Positions 7,940-27,881 of a stretch of DNA of 64,000 nucleotides are shown piece by piece (the first letter of the stretch is position 1; every line of letters begins with the position of its first letter). The position numbers and the translations under genes were made by a program. The stretch covers positions 62,001 through 126,000 of the forward strand of contig JACRNB010000010.1 in NCBI GenBank assembly GCA_016219425.1, written 5' to 3'. The notes under the pieces are model-generated. The model was not told the DNA's origin. It was given only the letters and a program-made list of their open reading frames with translations, and ran no database searches. Origin of the DNA: Betaproteobacteria bacterium (GTDB taxonomy: Bacteria > Pseudomonadota > Gammaproteobacteria > Burkholderiales > Thiobacillaceae).

Positions 7940-8200
7940 ATGAGCAGCGTATTGACCGTTCGTGTCGCCGACGACATGAAAAATCAGATGGATGCCTTGG
8001 CCGAGGCCACCGGTCGCACCCGTTCCTGGATCGCCGCAGAAGCCATCCGCCAATATGTGGACAGCGAAAGCTGGCAGGTGGCCGAAATCAAAAAGGCGTT
8101 GATCGAAGCCGATGCGGGCGATTTCGCCGATCCAGAGGAAGTCAAGCGTGTTTTCAGCAAGTATTCCCCCGCCAACCGGGGAACGCCGAATGCGGATTGA
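7940..8200 (+). CDS. ParD/RelB-like ribbon-helix-helix antitoxin
   Basis: This 86-residue protein begins with SSVLTVRVADDMKNQMDALA followed by TGRTRSWIAAEAIRQYV, the beta-strand and two helices of a CopG/ParD-type ribbon-helix-helix DNA-binding domain. The acidic C-terminal half would wrap the partner toxin. It is preceded by AGGAG and overlaps the downstream toxin gene by 11 nt, the usual antitoxin-first layout. It lies between ntpA and ntpB on the same strand and may be transcribed with them, though such modules normally have their own autoregulated promoter. Confidence 0.85.
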   Translation: MSSVLTVRVADDMKNQMDALAEATGRTRSWIAAEAIRQYVDSESWQVAEIKKALIEADAGDFADPEEVKRVFSKYSPANRGTPNAD

Positions 8201-8474
8201 GTGGCTGAACCAGGCGCTGCGTGATTTGGAGCAGGAAGCTGATTGGCTGGCCGCGAAGAATCCCGACGCCGCTGACGACTTGCTGAACACGCTGGACGAG
8301 CAAGTCAGCCTCCTCGTACAGCAGCCCGGCATCGGTCGTCCAGGGCGTGTGCCGGGGACGCGGGAGCTGGTGATCCGGCGTTTCCCCTATCTAATTCCTT
8401 ATCGAGTGCGCGGCGAGACGCTGGAGATCCTCCGCGTCTTCCACACCTCACGTAAGCCGCCGGAAAAATGGTGA
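8190..8474 (+). CDS. ParE/RelE-family toxin
   Basis: This 94-residue protein has the ParE/RelE fold signature: MRIEWLNQALRDLEQ at the N-terminus, a central helix pair, and a C-terminal beta sheet with RRFPYLIPYRVRGETLEILRVFHTSR. The ATG at 8190 was chosen because it gives the standard family start and overlaps the antitoxin gene. The conserved Arg and His in the last strands are present, so the toxin looks intact. ParE toxins act on DNA gyrase and RelE toxins cut ribosome-bound mRNA; the sequence does not settle which. Its stop lies only 4 nt before a duplicated copy of the ntpB start. Confidence 0.87.
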   Translation: MRIEWLNQALRDLEQEADWLAAKNPDAADDLLNTLDEQVSLLVQQPGIGRPGRVPGTRELVIRRFPYLIPYRVRGETLEILRVFHTSRKPPEKW

Positions 8475-8478
8475 TGGC

Positions 8479-8577
8479 ATGAAAAACATCGAATTCCGTG
8501 TCACTCCCCTCCCCCTTGAGGGGGGAGGGGTAGGGGGAGAGGGTGGGGCGCGCAGCGCCTGCCAACATCCAACATGA
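8479..8577 (+). other. Duplicated ntpB start running into repeat DNA (relic mini-ORF)
   Basis: The first 20 nt here (8479-8498) are identical to the first 20 nt of the intact ntpB gene (9029-9048), including its ATG. The frame then enters a CCCTCTCC-type palindromic repeat and stops after 32 codons, with the stop overlapping the start of the DUF559 gene (ATGA). This looks like the original ntpB start, cut off when the DUF559 cassette came in. The ParE-like toxin gene would then once have ended 4 nt before ntpB. It probably has no function of its own apart from possible translational coupling. Confidence 0.75.
8506..8548. repeat. CCCTCTCC-family palindromic repeat, left side of DUF559 cassette
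   Basis: A C-run/G-run palindrome (CTCCCCCTTGAGGGGGGAG) is followed by GGGGGAGAGGGTGG. The same element family flanks the other side of the DUF559 gene (8910-9019) and recurs at 27268-27398 and 43390-43488. Confidence 0.9.
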
Positions 8578-9032
8578 AAGCGCTGACCTTCGCCCGCCAA
8601 CTCCGCACGGCCCAGACCGATGCCGAAACCCTGCTCTGGTCCCGCCTGCGCGCGCACCGGCTGCTGGGCCTGAAATTCCGCCGCCAGCAGCCTCTCGGCC
8701 CCTATGTGGTGGATTTCTCCTGCCCGGAGAAGAAACTGATCGTGGAACTGGACGGCGGGCAGCATCAGGAACAGGCGGTGTATGACGAGGAACGGGATGC
8801 CTGGTTGAAGGCGGAGGGCTATGCCGTGCTGCGGTACTGGAACAACGAGCTGATGAGTAATCTGGAGGGGGTATTGGAAGATATTTGCCGCTGCGCGGGA
8901 GTGTTGGAACCACCCTCTCCCCAACCCCTCTCCCCTCAAGGGAGAGGGGCTAACCCCCCCACGAACCCCTGCCTTGCTCCCCTCCCTCTTGAGGGGGGAG
9001 GGGTCGGGGGAGAGGGTGGAGCCACCCCATGA
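8574..9032 (+). CDS. DUF559 (Vsr/REase-like) endonuclease-domain protein
   Basis: This 152-residue protein has its DUF559 core at about 1-110: an N-terminal segment on recombined or mobile DNA proteins (ARQLRTAQTDAETLLWSRLR), then the predicted nuclease strand pattern DFSCPEKKLIVELDGGQHQE with the conserved D...E-x-D-G...H acidic/His set, and YAVLRYWNNEL. The family resembles Vsr and other restriction-endonuclease-fold nucleases; its biological role is unknown. The last 40 residues are translated from flanking repeat DNA. The stop codon overlaps the start of ntpB (ATGA), so the inserted gene hands ribosomes on to ntpB. The insert is bounded by a 20-nt direct repeat of ntpB sequence. Confidence 0.88.
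   Translation: MKALTFARQLRTAQTDAETLLWSRLRAHRLLGLKFRRQQPLGPYVVDFSCPEKKLIVELDGGQHQEQAVYDEERDAWLKAEGYAVLRYWNNELMSNLEGVLEDICRCAGVLEPPSPQPLSPQGRGANPPTNPCLAPLPLEGGGVGGEGGATP
8910..9019. repeat. CCCTCTCC-family palindromic repeats, right side of DUF559 cassette
   Basis: Two units: CCACCCTCTCCCC...CAAGGGAGAGGGG, and CTCCCCTCCCTCTTGAGGGG with GGGGGAGAGGGTGG. The outer ends are complementary to each other and match the left repeat at 8506-8548, so the nuclease gene sits between related palindromes. Confidence 0.9.
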
Positions 9033-10435
9033 AAAACATCGAATTCCGCACCGCCACCAGCGCCCAGGGCGGCCTGTTGGTGATGGCGGGCGTACCCGGC
9101 GTGGCCGCCGGCTCGCGCGTGCAGATCAAGGACCACGCCGGCAGGCTGCGTAACGGCTTGGTGATCCGCAGCGCGGACGACGCGGTGCTGGTGGAAGTGT
9201 TCGAAGGCACCGACGATCTGGACCTGGAACGCACCTGGGTGCGTTTCCTGGACGAGCCCTTCAAGCTGCCGGTCTCGCGCGACCTCCTGGGCCGTGTGTT
9301 CAACGGCGCCGGGCTGCCGCGCGACGGACGTCCGCCCATCATCTCCGCCGACCGCCGCAACGTGAACGGCGAGCCGCTCAACCCCGCCGCGCGCGCCTAC
9401 CCGCGCGAGTTCATCCAGACCGGCCTCTCCGCCATCGACGGCATGAACTCGCTCACGCGCGGCCAGAAGCTGCCCATCTTCTCCGGCGGCGGCCTGCCGC
9501 ATAACCGGGTGGCGGCGCAGATCGTGCGTCAGGCCAAGCTGCTGGGCGAGGCATCGTCCGAGTTTGTGGTGGTGTTCGCCGCCTTCGGCGCCTCCCATGC
9601 CGACGCCCGTTTCTTCCAGGAAAGCTTTGAAGAGTCCGGCGTGTTGAACAAGGTGGTGATGTTCCTCAACCTCGCCGACGAGCCGGTGATCGAGCGCCTG
9701 CTCACCCCGCGCGCGGCGCTCACCGCCGCCGAGTACCTGGCGTTCGACCTGGATTACCACGTTCTCGTGGTGATGACCGACATGACCGCCTACGCCGAGG
9801 CCCTGCGCGAGGTGGCGGTGCTGCGCGGCGACGTGCCGGCGCGCAAGGGCTATCCCGGCTACCTCTATTCCGATCTGGCCGAGATCTACGAACGCGCGGG
9901 GCGCATCAAGAACCGGCGCGGCTCCATCACCCTGATCCCGGTGCTGTCCATGCCGTCGGACGACATCACCCACCCCATCCCCGACCTCACCGGCTACATC
10001 ACCGAAGGCCAGATCGTGCTGGGGCGCGAACTCGCCAACCAGGGCGTGTATCCGCCGGTCACCGTGCTGCCGTCGCTGTCGCGCCTGATGAAGGACGGCA
10101 TCGGCAAGAACTTCACGCGCGAGGATCACCCCCACGTCGCCAGCCAGCTCTTCGCCAGCTACGCCAAGGCGCTGGAGGTGCGCGGTCTGGCGGCCATCAT
10201 CGGGGCGGAGGAATTGAGCGACGCCGACCGCCGCTACCTGGAATTTGCGGAACACTTCGAGCGCCGCTTCATCGCCCAGGGCGAGGATGAAGACCGCAGC
10301 GTGTTCGAGACCCTCAACCTCGCTTGGGAACTCCTCTCCATGCTGCCCGCCGAGTCGCTGATCCGCGTGAGCGAGGAGGAGATCGCGAAGCATCACAAGG
10401 GGGCTGCTGTAGCGCCGGCATCCCTGCCGGCCTAG
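9029..10435 (+). CDS. ntpB: V/A-type ATPase regulatory subunit B
   Basis: This 468-residue protein is the non-catalytic nucleotide-binding partner of NtpA in the A3B3 ring. Family blocks present: DLLGRVFNGAGLPRDG, GLSAIDGMNSLTRGQKLPIFSGGGLPHN (with no Walker A lysine, as expected for B), the VVMTDMTAYAEALREV block and ARKGYPGYLYSDLAEIYERAG. The first 20 nt are duplicated at 8479-8498 as part of the DUF559 insertion. The last residues ([10 protein letters not shown]) and the stop come from a GTAGCGCCGGC-type repeat, so the natural C-terminus has been replaced or extended. It should be functional, because B-subunit C-termini tolerate variation. Confidence 0.97.
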   Translation: MKNIEFRTATSAQGGLLVMAGVPGVAAGSRVQIKDHAGRLRNGLVIRSADDAVLVEVFEGTDDLDLERTWVRFLDEPFKLPVSRDLLGRVFNGAGLPRDGRPPIISADRRNVNGEPLNPAARAYPREFIQTGLSAIDGMNSLTRGQKLPIFSGGGLPHNRVAAQIVRQAKLLGEASSEFVVVFAAFGASHADARFFQESFEESGVLNKVVMFLNLADEPVIERLLTPRAALTAAEYLAFDLDYHVLVVMTDMTAYAEALREVAVLRGDVPARKGYPGYLYSDLAEIYERAGRIKNRRGSITLIPVLSMPSDDITHPIPDLTGYITEGQIVLGRELANQGVYPPVTVLPSLSRLMKDGIGKNFTREDHPHVASQLFASYAKALEVRGLAAIIGAEELSDADRRYLEFAEHFERRFIAQGEDEDRSVFETLNLAWELLSMLPAESLIRVSEEEIAKHHKGAAVAPASLPA

Positions 10436-10457: not shown

Positions 10458-11084
10458 ATGAAAAAACGCCTCTCCGTCCCCCCCACCAAGAGCGCCCTGC
10501 TCCAGGTCGGTCGCCAGGCCAAATTCCTGGAACAGGGCCGGCAGATGCTGGAGAAGAAGCGCGATCTGCTCACCCGCCTGGTTTATGAGCGCCTGGCCCA
10601 GTACCGCGAACTGCGCGCCCAGACCGTGCAGGAACTGGCCGAGGCCTACCACTGGCTGGGCATCGTGCAGATGCGCATGGGCGGGCAGATGTTGCGCCAG
10701 TCCTCCGTGGGCCTGAAGCCGGCGGTGGCCATCAAGGTGACGGCCCGTTCCAGCGTCGGCGTGGAATACCCCAGCGTCACCGCCGAGGCCCTGCCCCTGC
10801 AACCCGTGGGCCTGATGTGGACCGACGTCAGCTTCGACGAAGCGCGCCTGCGCCTGCGCAACCTCACCATCACCCTGGCGCGCCTGGGCGAGGCGGAAAA
10901 CGCCCTCTGGCGTCTGTTGGCAGCCAGCCGCAAGACCCAGAAGCGGGTCAACGCCCTGAAATACAACATCATCCCGCGCTATGTGGCCACGGTGCATCAC
11001 ATCCGCGCCGCCCTGGAGGAGGACGAACGCAACACCCTGTTCCAGATCAAGGTGCTGCGGGCGCGCTCACACTCTTTGACATAG
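10458..11084 (+). CDS. ntpD: V/A-type ATPase subunit D (rotor), altered C-terminus
   Basis: This 208-residue protein is the long two-helix coiled coil of the central rotor. The N-terminal helix begins with the family motif PTKSALLQVGRQAKFLEQG, and the C-terminal helix contains TQKRVNALKYNIIPRYVATV followed by EEDERNTLFQIKVLR. The last nine residues (ARSHSLT and preceding) come from inserted DNA. The ancestral end, KQAAV, survives downstream in a duplicated 3' fragment at 12119-12209. The swap follows insertion of a RES/MbcA cassette and leaves the coiled coil nearly intact, so the protein is probably still functional. Confidence 0.93.
   Translation: MKKRLSVPPTKSALLQVGRQAKFLEQGRQMLEKKRDLLTRLVYERLAQYRELRAQTVQELAEAYHWLGIVQMRMGGQMLRQSSVGLKPAVAIKVTARSSVGVEYPSVTAEALPLQPVGLMWTDVSFDEARLRLRNLTITLARLGEAENALWRLLAASRKTQKRVNALKYNIIPRYVATVHHIRAALEEDERNTLFQIKVLRARSHSLT
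10988..11059 (+). repeat. 72-nt direct repeat, left copy (within ntpD)
   Basis: It matches 12119-12190 over 72 nt with one difference (T at 10997 against C at 12128). The pair brackets the 1,059-nt RES/MbcA insert. The left copy is the functional 3' coding part of ntpD. Confidence 0.95.
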
Positions 11085-11122: not shown

Positions 11123-11584
11123 TTACCGAAACATCCTGGGATCGAAGTCGAAAGGCCGGGTTACGGCCATGCTCACCTCACCGAATCTCGGATGCAGGGG
11201 GTTGATCAGGGCGTTTCGGGCCTCGGGCACAATGACCGAAGGCAGCAGCAGTACCAGTTGTTGCGCTTGCCGCAGCCAGCGGGTGCCATAGGCCTGGGCT
11301 TCGTCGGAGCCGGGCAGGGCGTTCCAGGCTTTCGGCAACTCGTAGAGAGGCGCTACTTGTGTCAGGCCATCGTCATCCGGGACATCCACCGCTACCAGCA
11401 ACAAATCCCTGGGAGTGAGTCCGCTGGTGTGGACGAGTTTCTCCAGAGTAGCCAGTTCGACGCTTGTGGAAGCGTATAGCGCGCCGAAGCCCGCCTTGTT
11501 CCAGCGACCGCCATGGAGGCGACTGCCCTCACAGCTTCTATCCAGAGCGAAACGCTGCTGAGCAATACGCCAGTAGCGCGCCAC
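11123..11584 (-). CDS. RES-domain toxin
   Basis: This 153-residue protein is a RES-family toxin. Members characterised elsewhere are ADP-ribosyltransferase-fold enzymes that deplete or use NAD+. Visible signatures are YWRIAQQRFA, GGRWNKAGFGALYASTSVELATLEKL (the conserved Arg and Glu/Ser set after which the family is named) and LLLVAVDVPDD. It starts at a GTG immediately after the antitoxin stop, so the pair is tightly coupled with the antitoxin first. It is opposite in strand to the ATPase operon in which it sits and so must have its own promoter. Confidence 0.9.
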   Translation of the reverse strand: MARYWRIAQQRFALDRSCEGSRLHGGRWNKAGFGALYASTSVELATLEKLVHTSGLTPRDLLLVAVDVPDDDGLTQVAPLYELPKAWNALPGSDEAQAYGTRWLRQAQQLVLLLPSVIVPEARNALINPLHPRFGEVSMAVTRPFDFDPRMFR

Positions 11585-12040
11585 TCAGACCACGCCGCCT
11601 TCGCTGATGGCCACCAGGATGCGACGCGCAGCCGTGGCGCCCACCTCCGTGTCGAGCAAATCCAGCGGAGGCGAATCGCCCAGAGCCTGGTTTGGGCGCA
11701 GCAGCCACTCCCGTGCCAGGGCATCGTCACCGAACGCTTCCAGCGCTTCACGGGAGAGCATGGCAATGCGGTGCATACGCTCCGAGGCGGCAGGGTCCAA
11801 CGATGCAACCCTGGTCGTACGCCGGTGCAGGGTGCTGGCTGAGACACCCAGGATGTCGCATAGGCGTTTTTCCGGCACTTTGAAGTATTCCCCAGCCTGC
11901 TTGACCAGGGCGGCGGGATAGCCGGTGCGCAACCTGCGGATCAAGGCCTCGCCCATGCTGGGCTCATCCTGGATGAAGCGGTTGAACGGAAGGACGGGCG
12001 CCGATTCGGCCACCTGGGGGGGGAGTGGTTTAAGGTCCAT
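11585..12040 (-). CDS. MbcA/ParS/Xre-type antitoxin (DUF2384)
   Basis: This 151-residue protein carries a helix-turn-helix near residues 50-80 (VPEKRLCDILGVSASTLHRR) and the C-terminal DUF2384 toxin-binding segment (EREWLLRP-like AREWLLRPNQALGDSPPLDLLDTEVGA). Both are standard for antitoxins paired with RES toxins. The N-terminal 25 residues are unstructured. It lies directly upstream of the RES gene. The intergenic DNA at 12041-12118 should contain the autoregulated promoter, but I could not identify clear boxes. Confidence 0.9.
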   Translation of the reverse strand: MDLKPLPPQVAESAPVLPFNRFIQDEPSMGEALIRRLRTGYPAALVKQAGEYFKVPEKRLCDILGVSASTLHRRTTRVASLDPAASERMHRIAMLSREALEAFGDDALAREWLLRPNQALGDSPPLDLLDTEVGATAARRILVAISEGGVV

Positions 12041-12118: not shown

Positions 12119-12209
12119 CACGGTGCACCACATCCGCGCCGCCCTGGAGGAGGACGAACGCAACACCCTGTTCCAGATCAAGGTGCTGCGCAAGCAGGCG
12201 GCGGTGTAA
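12119..12209 (+). pseudogene. Duplicated 3' end of ntpD (72-nt direct repeat, right copy)
   Basis: This fragment encodes the last part of subunit D, from T-V-H-H-I-R through LRKQAAV and a TAA stop. It has no start codon of its own. The first 72 nt repeat 10988-11059 with a single difference. It preserves what must have been the original ntpD terminus before the toxin-antitoxin cassette was inserted. Confidence 0.92.
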
Positions 12210-22312: not shown

Positions 22313-22430
22313 CCTTCGTAGGAGCCCGGCTGCGCCGGGCGATCAACGTTCGCGTCCTGTAACCCGGCTATCGCCCGGCGCAGCCGGGCTCCTACCTTCA
22401 CCTGAGCTTCATCTCCCGCCCGCATCCCCG
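22236..22430 (+). repeat. Tandem duplication, unit A (priA 3' end plus palindromic repeat)
   Basis: This 195-nt unit covers the last 77 nt of priA and the GTAGGAGCCCGGCT-type repeat. It recurs at 22439-22633, offset by 203 nt, with about five differences. The two are joined by ATGACCGATCT, which is the start of hoxF. Confidence 0.92.
22318..22395. repeat. GTAGGAGCCCGGCT-family palindromic repeat, copy 1
   Basis: Inverted arms GTAGGAGCCCGGCTGCGCCG and CGGCGCAGCCGGGCTCCTAC enclose a short spacer, giving a very stable hairpin just after priA. It could terminate or protect the priA message. Confidence 0.9.
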
Positions 22431-27266: not shown

Positions 27267-27267
27267 C

Positions 27268-27398
27268 CCCTCCCCCTTGAGGGGGGAGGGGTTGGGGAGA
27301 GGGTGGGGCGAGCGCAGCTCGTCCGCTTTGTTCACATCAAGTCGATCTACGCCCTCCACACCCTCACCCTGCCCTCTCCCCTCAAGGGAGAGGGTTCT
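27268..27398. repeat. Pair of CCCTCTCC-family palindromic repeats, hoxH-hoxW gap
   Basis: One unit (CCCCTCCCCCTTGAGGGGGG...GAGAGGGTGGGG) at 27268-27308 and an inverted unit (CACCCTGCCCTCTCCCCTCA...GGGAGAGGG) at 27363-27395 can pair over a distance. The arrangement mirrors the repeats around the DUF559 gene, but here with only about 55 nt between them and no gene. Confidence 0.88.
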
Positions 27399-27404
27399 GG
27401 TTTG

Positions 27405-27881
27405 ATGGTGAAGTCCGTCCCCACCCTCATCCTCGCCATCGGCAACCCCAGCCGGGGCGATGACGCCCTGGGGCCACTGGCTATCGAGCGCCTGGAGGCG
27501 ATGAAGCTGCCCGACGTGGAATTGCTCACCGACTTCCAGCTCCAGGTGGAACACGTCCTCGACCTGGAGGGCCGCAACGAGGTGATCTTTATCGACGCCG
27601 CCGCGAGCGGGCCGGAGCCGTTTGAATTCCGCCCCCTGCTCCCCGCGCACGACTTCGCCCACACCAGCCATGCCCTGGCGCCGGAAACGGTGTTGGGCGT
27701 CTGCGCGCGCGTGGGCGTGACCCCGCCTGTACAGGCCCATGTGCTGGCCATACGCGGTTACAGGTTCGAACTGGGCGAGCCGCTTTCCGCCGCCGCCGCC
27801 GCCAACCTGGAGGCGGCCCTGCGCTTCCTTCTCGCCAGGGGGTTCCCCCCTTTGCAAAAGGGGGGCAGGGGGGATTTCTGA
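27405..27881 (+). CDS. hoxW: HoxW hydrogenase maturation endopeptidase
   Basis: This 158-residue protease trims the C-terminus of the HoxH precursor after nickel insertion. The N-terminal strand and nickel-contact Asp are in LILAIGNPSRGDDALGP, and the second acidic region is VIFIDAAASGPEP. The His-containing segment FAHTSHALAPETVLG matches the third metal-contact region of the family. I chose the ATG at 27405; the frame upstream is repeat DNA. The last residues (FPPLQKGGRGDF) are encoded by another repeat, so the C-terminus is extended. Confidence 0.9.
   Translation: MVKSVPTLILAIGNPSRGDDALGPLAIERLEAMKLPDVELLTDFQLQVEHVLDLEGRNEVIFIDAAASGPEPFEFRPLLPAHDFAHTSHALAPETVLGVCARVGVTPPVQAHVLAIRGYRFELGEPLSAAAAANLEAALRFLLARGFPPLQKGGRGDF

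Follow-up and report, generated by a model that had tools for sequence, protein, structure and literature searches.

A DUF559 nuclease gene separates a parE toxin gene from ntpB, the gene for subunit B of a V/A-type ATPase, in a Thiobacillaceae genome (contig JACRNB010000010.1; the window analyzed is a stretch of 64,000 nt), having entered the parE-ntpB junction by an insertion that duplicated 21 nt of its target. We propose that the insertion is probably a mobile element of small size (some 0.53 kb at this locus) with palindromic ends resembling repetitive extragenic palindromes (REPs) and a single gene, DUF559, coding for a Vsr/EDxHD-type nuclease. That the palindromes and the gene form one mobile unit seems very likely, and that DUF559 is itself the mobilizer we infer to be the likelier case.

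Relatives that lack the element allow the insertion event to be read. The exact direct repeat (CATGAAAAACATCGAATTCCG) measures 21 nt, one more than the initial annotation had given for the duplicated ntpB start. Its two copies, offset by 550 nt, enclose a 529-bp insert made up of three CCCTCTCC-type palindromes (P1, P2, and P3; Table 1) and the DUF559 gene, and the repeat has no further copy on the + strand of the window. We located ntpB in 20 of the 23 genomes of the genus, and the end of ntpA was readable upstream of it in the genome itself and in 15 relatives (it was unreadable in four, one of them a fragment). Five of the 15 have the order ntpA-RHH-ParE-ntpB, in ten ntpA is directly followed by ntpB, and none carries DUF559 between the two. 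In all five parE-ntpB relatives the ntpB ATG lies 4 nt past the ParE stop; this native spacing is kept by the left copy of the window and not by the right. When the window's flanks are joined at the duplication they align without gaps to all five relatives, with 118 to 124 identical positions across 153 to 159 nt, while on each side the alignment of the element-containing junction ends at the duplication. The element therefore entered an existing parE-ntpB junction, duplicating 21 nt, and the right copy serves the full-length ntpB. A chance duplication was rejected on these empty sites and on control windows: among 1683 windows of the same geometry from DUF559 loci, placed away from the gene, a repeat of at least 18 nt other than a C/G run occurred in two and one of at least 20 nt in none.

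As a consequence of the duplication, ntpB keeps a start, and start-stop overlaps stand on both sides of the nuclease gene. The stop of the reading frame that begins at the left copy falls inside the DUF559 start (ATGA at 8574), and the DUF559 stop falls inside the ntpB start (ATGA at 9029); the C-terminal part of the DUF559 frame is translated palindrome. Both overlaps and the related palindromes bounding the gene had been noticed in the initial annotation, which took the arrangement for a mobile nuclease cassette. The empty site in sister species supports that view, and no relative was found with DUF559 at the same spot but without the duplicates. A second case of insertion into a start-stop overlap comes from Deinococcus. 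In three species of this genus hpaE shares four nt with the gene that follows it; strain NW-56 has a DUF559 element at this very point, with TCA retained on both sides and both genes whole. The empty sites that were read, at ntpB and in Deinococcus, are free of palindromes. The E. coli sapF region was considered as a further empty site and set aside, as the two genomes inspected among those lacking full coverage of the ycjD locus have an efflux operon after sapF. In this sapF-fabI region, a query made from the ycjD locus is matched over 80% or more of its length at a single position by 3362 of the 5426 E. coli genomes. No clean empty site was present among the matches listed for S. meliloti and Azospirillum.

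Linkage of the gene to palindromes is found far beyond this locus. We examined 80 named loci from Proteobacteria, Chloroflexi, Gastranaerophilales, Nitrospirae, and others, which are the best 80 of at least 574 confirmed loci, that is, best query matches and not a random sample, with control windows taken from the same loci. The 9-mer GGGAGAGGG occurs within 300 nt of DUF559 in 55 of the 80, compared to 47 of 1029 control chunks. The inverted-repeat score across the gene lies at or above the 99th percentile of 1842 control windows in 42 of 79 loci (one was dropped for a short flank), and perfect 8-bp stems flank the gene on both sides in 37 of 77 (three dropped likewise) versus 30 of 1853 controls. 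Among 135 DUF559 loci (137 rows, two dropped), CCTCTCC hairpins accompany 63, against 31 of 1077 controls. Two other motifs are not enriched beside DUF559: GTAGGAGC, which we take to be the GTAG-REP tag (1 of 135 loci versus 10 of 1077 controls), and ATTCCC..GGGAAT, presumably of the CGTC/dRS3 type (2 of 135 flanks versus 2 of 1077). The enrichment of palindromes beside DUF559 genes that the initial annotation had called for is thus strong against controls.

The type of palindrome varies. CCTCTCC prevails in the 79 of 80 named loci that could be typed (52, with 15 CCTCCCC, 1 CCCCCTTT, and 11 with none of these) and in the 38 analyzed loci of the class (23, 6, 3, and 6, respectively), the class sample being 49 of the 71 matches that reach E 1e-25 in genomes other than this one, less 11 in which the motif was not located. 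Single genes inspected in Azospirillum, Neisseria, Sinorhizobium, Deinococcus, and Pseudanabaena have palindromes on both sides, imperfect on one side in Neisseria and Deinococcus, and E. coli ycjD has degenerate palindromes on one side only. Palindrome type clusters on a tree of 135 nuclease domains, built from few columns and with many weak forks: the CCCCCTTT type changes 3 times versus 12.6 in shuffles and the CCTCTCC type 27 times versus 42.8.

The same palindromes also occur without the gene. In the window, a gene-less copy pairs a P1-like with an inverted P2-like palindrome across a short spacer and shares exact stretches of 26 nt with the sequence at 8506 and 23 nt with that at 8926. 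In the genome as a whole we counted 151 hairpins fitting the relaxed pattern CCTCYCCC..GGGRGAGG, the highest count in the genus, and 20 matches to the arm-plus-tail pattern, 18 of which have, as judged by eye, a second, inverted palindrome nearby; no DUF559 gene lies beside any of the 20 in the inspected stretches. The most plausible reading is that the palindromes are ends of the element, which also exist alone. Besides the DUF559 gene in the window, this genome has two others: one lies within recG, and the other follows a gene that we call hypE-like by our own reading and has a different palindrome type (CCCCCCTTTTTCAAAGGGGGG). DUF559 apparently lies at or after the end of hypE in eight loci, mostly with CCCCCTTT palindromes, the AIRS domains of hypE being confirmed by Pfam for only one of them (L210). 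A CCCCCTTTGCAAAAGGGGGG palindrome at 27840-27881, resembling the flanking type of the second DUF559 clade, forms the in-frame end (FPPLQKGGRGDF) of the open reading frame (ORF) that follows the hydrogenase gene. Repeats starting with GTAG stand at 10409, 32033, 49631, and 51153 (GTAGCGCCGGCATCCCTGCCGGC), and GTAGGAGC lies in a 102-nt direct repeat at 22315 and 22518; judging by these motifs, a second REP system may be present besides the CCTCTCC-type palindromes.

Across genomes, hairpins follow the nuclease. We searched 229 genomes of the class for the hairpin CCTCTCCC..GGGAGAGG and found it in 78. Counting as strong a DUF559 match at E 1e-25 or better (51 genomes, with 26 genomes of weaker match counted as lacking), hairpins are found in 44 of 51 genomes with strong DUF559 and in 34 of 178 without; two or more are found in 40 of 51 and 22 of 178 (odds ratio 26, p 5e-19). 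A control with the reversed pattern gave at most one per genome. As control genes, ParE had an odds ratio of 1.0 and the Y1 transposase one of 2.7, the Y1 family combining IS200 with the REP-associated tyrosine transposases (RAYTs), which were not isolated from it. When only Y1-negative genomes are considered, 7 of 9 with DUF559 have the hairpin compared to 4 of 63 without. Within the genus, DUF559 is patchy, with a match in 13 of 23 genomes. The six with CCTCTCC-type DUF559, assigned by eye, have 31 to 151 hairpins and the other 17 have 0 to 69 (p 0.0002), while the hairpin count shows no significant relation to other DUF559 types (p 0.22).

The gene is also found inside the reading frames of other genes. 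Of 136 loci, 20 have a frame through DUF559 that is open for at least 200 aa on both sides of the central motif. These comprise 10 of the 80 named loci, 4 of the 18 from the genus, and 6 of the 38 from the class; the class share is inflated, since 8 of 20 class loci retrieved together were picked for long open frames. Only open frames were scored and out-of-frame breaks went uncounted, and the count carries no claim of frame preference. A Pfam scan covered 17 of the 20 open-frame loci and found a host family in every one. The host matches on both sides of DUF559 in 11: RecG, HsdR, YgiQ, BioF, one HsdS, valyl-tRNA synthetase (ValRS), PriA, three HrpA, and MmeI. It matches on one side in six: two PglX-like methylases, two HsdS, and two DNA methylases. 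CobT is likewise split, with 190 aa downstream. Long open frames at one locus, and the upstream parts of those at four others, were judged spurious and not taken as hosts. The ValRS with DUF559 has no other full-length match beside it in its Rickettsiales assembly, which measures 1.4 Mb and may be incomplete. Some hosts recur: the central region of HsdS in three families, at positions that are close and not identical, and the same site of HrpA and of the PglX-like methylase in two taxa each, the pairs sharing 78% and 65% identity, respectively, along the full length of the host gene. An intein could be suspected from insertion in frame and was rejected, as no intein/Hint family appeared among the Pfam matches at E 0.001 in 22 scanned DUF559 frames; introns were not searched.

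RecG offers the closest view of such residence. At the threshold used, the genome has a single recG, and DUF559 lies within it, between residues 415 and 418 of the E. coli-type RecG (9wm0), that is, between DEQHRFGV and ATPIPR. Among 21 relatives read at this loop, one (L154) has a palindrome pair and another (L155) a single palindrome, both in frame, and 19 have neither. Five relatives apparently have another, GCGAGT-like repeat in frame at the loop. A structure model of the RecG-DUF559 protein was uninformative, with fair to good RecG parts and a predicted local distance difference test (pLDDT) score below 50 for the insert (398-544). One alignment was set aside for placing stand-alone DUF559 sequences wrongly within RecG.

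Membership of the window protein in DUF559 (PF04480) is clear, at 144.8 bits compared to a Pfam gathering score of 20.6. Its structure model (mean pLDDT 85.1) retrieves in Foldseek the DUF559 protein 3hrl and then the homing endonuclease I-Bth0305I (3r3p_B, E 9.5e-4, TMt 0.70), followed by AbaSI, PvuRts1I, and Vsr (1vsr, E 0.055) with Toxoplasma mitoribosomal proteins interspersed. By sequence, DUF559 matches I-Bth0305I at E 0.036. E18, D47, E58, D60, and H64 are among the residues invariant in 29 DUF559 sequences, and their conservation suggests that they form an EDxHD active site. The model thus points to a catalytic fold as in I-Bth0305I (for accounts of which see PMC3943268 and PMC9403480, as far as consulted), in line with the Vsr-like fold that the initial annotation had supposed. 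One DUF559 gene is filed under EDxHD in the part of PMC9403480 consulted. Matches to toxin subunits, met in another comparison, were taken as chance.

The insertion with its duplication, the linkage of gene and palindromes, the many gene-less copies, and the residence in open frames are best read together as a nuclease-only mobile element that spreads REP-like palindromes, by analogy with RAYT and REPIN but with an unrelated enzyme. DUF559 would recognize the palindromes, probably as hairpins or cruciforms, and nick or cut both element and target, and host repair would copy the element into the break. Widely staggered nicks or repair synthesis could produce an occasional long duplication, such as the 21 nt here, with other events leaving none. 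Readthrough of the palindromes, which are free of stops, together with selection, would favor the survival of copies at start-stop junctions or in in-frame loops.

Several observations weigh against this proposal. Its association between DUF559 and palindromes is correlational, and there are exceptions in both directions: of the 34 genomes with hairpins and no strong DUF559, 14 have five or more hairpins (some of these 14 have weak or partial DUF559 matches), and 7 of the 51 genomes with strong DUF559 are hairpin-free. Loss of DUF559 after the palindromes had spread is a possible explanation of such exceptions. Long duplications are a minority, a flanking direct repeat of at least 18 nt being found in 7 of 99 DUF559 loci versus 2 of 1683 controls. 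On inspection, three of these loci resemble local satellites and two look like longer diverged duplications, leaving the window locus and one other (L115) as clean cases, and we rejected long target duplication as a general rule. The initial annotation's cassette that duplicates and re-creates its target start thus holds for the restored ntpB start and not as a rule for the family. In recG, the longest direct repeat within 400 nt is 12 nt and distant from the insert edges, and no repeat was seen at the edges themselves. The palindrome tails point inward on the left side (85 versus 29) and have no clear direction on the right (30 versus 26), so that inward tails were not accepted as proof of defined ends. 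In L. pneumophila, repeated segments with a transposase together with DUF559 are recombination hot spots, according to the portion of PMC12308824 consulted. Separately, DUF559 stands at three loci between diverged copies of the end of the host gene or of longer flanks; the two loci with diverged duplications noted above are among the three.

Finally, DUF559 could have invaded palindrome pairs that already existed instead of generating them, with the pairs as landing sites for a site-targeting nuclease gene. The RecG loop, where the gene, a palindrome pair, and a single palindrome occur in different genomes, lends this some weight, as do the hairpins of genomes without strong DUF559 and the precedent of ISPpu9, an insertion sequence reported to be located in REPs. 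Yet few genomes without strong DUF559 have two or more hairpins, the gene is flanked by complete palindromes on both sides and not by the halves of one, and the empty sites at ntpB and in Deinococcus have no palindrome at all, and we consider prior landing sites unlikely. It is more doubtful still that the palindromes are REPs of the ordinary kind, mobilized by a RAYT (Y1) transposase, with DUF559 as a passenger or a REP-tolerant gene. The genome does have two Y1_Tnp matches along with its GTAG-looking repeats, and Y1 presence is weakly correlated with hairpins; the far higher odds ratio of DUF559, the Y1-negative genomes, and the counts of GTAGGAGC led us to reject RAYT as the mobilizer.

Classical homing, in which DUF559 would cut the empty allele of ntpB, or of each host gene, and be copied by allelic gene conversion, draws on the EDxHD homing endonuclease fold and on the recurrent hosts HsdS, HrpA, and PglX-like methylase. 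Allelic gene conversion, however, would not be expected to duplicate its target, and the insertions are found between genes as well as within many unrelated ones. In the HrpA pair and the PglX-like pair, the similarity extends through the entire host gene and may reflect shared ancestry or gene transfer, and the HsdS positions are near each other without being identical. Of the homing-like insertion raised in the initial annotation, the homing-type fold stands; the data do not bear out strict, allelic homing, which is a decidedly unlikely account. We give very little credence to a domesticated Vsr-like repair enzyme in an ordinary operon, where palindromes would have collected as terminators or mRNA stabilizers. 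The Vsr-like fold is compatible with such a role, and a Vsr-like protein figures in a DNA damage phenotype of Caulobacter (PMC12907096, consulted in part), but residence in unrelated genes, the patchy distribution in the genus, and the 21-nt duplication with its empty sites speak against it.

Table 1. Features of the ntpB locus and the gene-less copy, in window coordinates
Feature	Position	Strand	Remark
RHH antitoxin-like gene	7940..8200	+	
ParE toxin gene, upstream of the insertion	8190..8474	+	Start read from sequence; listed ORF 8112-8474
Left copy of the 21-nt ntpB start	8478..8498	+	Native position, spaced as in relatives: ATG 4 nt past the parE stop
32-aa ORF from the left start copy (MKNIEFRVTPLPLEGGGVGGEGGARSACQHPT)	8479..8577	+	By translation; ends in the ATGA of DUF559
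Palindrome P1, left element end	8504..8549	+	Inward tail GGGGGAGAGGGTGG
DUF559 (PF04480) nuclease ORF	8574..9032	+	PF04480 E 1e-42; stop overlaps the ntpB start
Palindrome P2	8910..8950	-	Inverted relative to P1
Palindrome P3	8977..9022	+	93% identity to P1 across 46 nt
Right copy of the 21-nt duplication	9028..9048	+	Where full-length ntpB begins
ntpB (V/A-type ATPase subunit B), target gene	9029..10435	+	Frame open
Gene-less copy: P1-like and inverted P2-like palindromes, short spacer, no DUF559	27267..27395	+	Between a nickel-hydrogenase gene and the next ORF

Going upstream from the left copy, the ParE toxin gene is followed by the RHH antitoxin gene and then by ntpA. Elsewhere in the operon, the 3' region of ntpD is duplicated exactly over 62 nt (10998-11059 and 12129-12190), and the two copies flank a RES/Xre toxin-antitoxin pair (11123-12040, minus strand), next to which lies a PIN-domain gene. 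The ntp operon seems to gather toxin-antitoxin modules.

We regard as evenly poised the broader proposition that DUF559 nucleases are dedicated mobilizers of a third, phylum-spanning REP-like superfamily, a transposase-free class of element that moves by nuclease cutting and host repair, enters even essential genes in frame (ValRS in Rickettsiales), and leaves gene-less palindromes behind. Such a class would add nuclease-only spread of palindromes alongside RAYT, assign a role to a widespread domain whose function is unknown, and provide a candidate enzyme for the repeat CCTCTCCC..GGGAGAGG, which is translated as LPSPSGGGAGGEG-like linkers. If true, it may also offer an analogy for the movement of palindromes that have no enzyme of their own, such as Rickettsia palindromic elements (RPEs) and CGTC REPs, and the occupation of open frames in RecG, HrpA, PriA, and ValRS amounts to a natural set of domain insertions. 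Because E. coli BL21 has a DUF559 gene, ycjD, the hypothesis is directly testable. In full-text searches of the open-access PubMed Central literature, no title or abstract among those listed connects DUF559 with palindromic repeats; earlier work elsewhere is possible.

The element shares features with several known systems. With Vsr it has a distant fold match in common, and it differs in that DUF559 lies outside any repair or methylase operon in the window. Its modeled catalytic domain resembles that of I-Bth0305I and other EDxHD homing endonucleases, whereas DUF559 here is ectopic, has palindromic ends of its own, and, in the frames scanned, is accompanied by no intein family. The target duplication speaks for a route other than cutting of an empty allele and allelic copying. 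Gene-less copies with inverted ends recall miniature inverted-repeat transposable elements (MITEs), yet the gene-bearing relative encodes a nuclease and not a known transposase. Of the properties looked for in MITEs and DDE-type insertion sequences, the ends are inverted and the duplication at ntpB is 21 nt; no regular target duplication was seen, short ones not having been systematically measured. RPEs and CGTC REPs likewise place palindromes within open reading frames, many of them in DNA synthesis and repair genes, as described in the parts of PMC3733652 consulted. The main text of that article (Di Nocera 2013) has no CCCTC or GGGAG string, its consensus figures lying outside this check, and a related family there is possible. 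The ATTCCC..GGGAAT palindrome of the CGTC type is all but missing from the flanks of DUF559.

The closest parallel is with RAYT and REPIN, in which, from general knowledge and from PMC3733652 as far as consulted, one small gene likewise lies between palindromes that also occur as gene-less inverted pairs. The differences concern the enzyme, here a Vsr/EDxHD-type nuclease (PF04480) and not a Y1 transposase, whose presence explains the hairpins poorly, and the palindrome, here CCCTCTCC..GGGAGAGG with no enrichment of the GTAG tag. The element works like a RAYT/REPIN system and yet is not a member of it, having neither a Y1 gene nor a GTAG tag.

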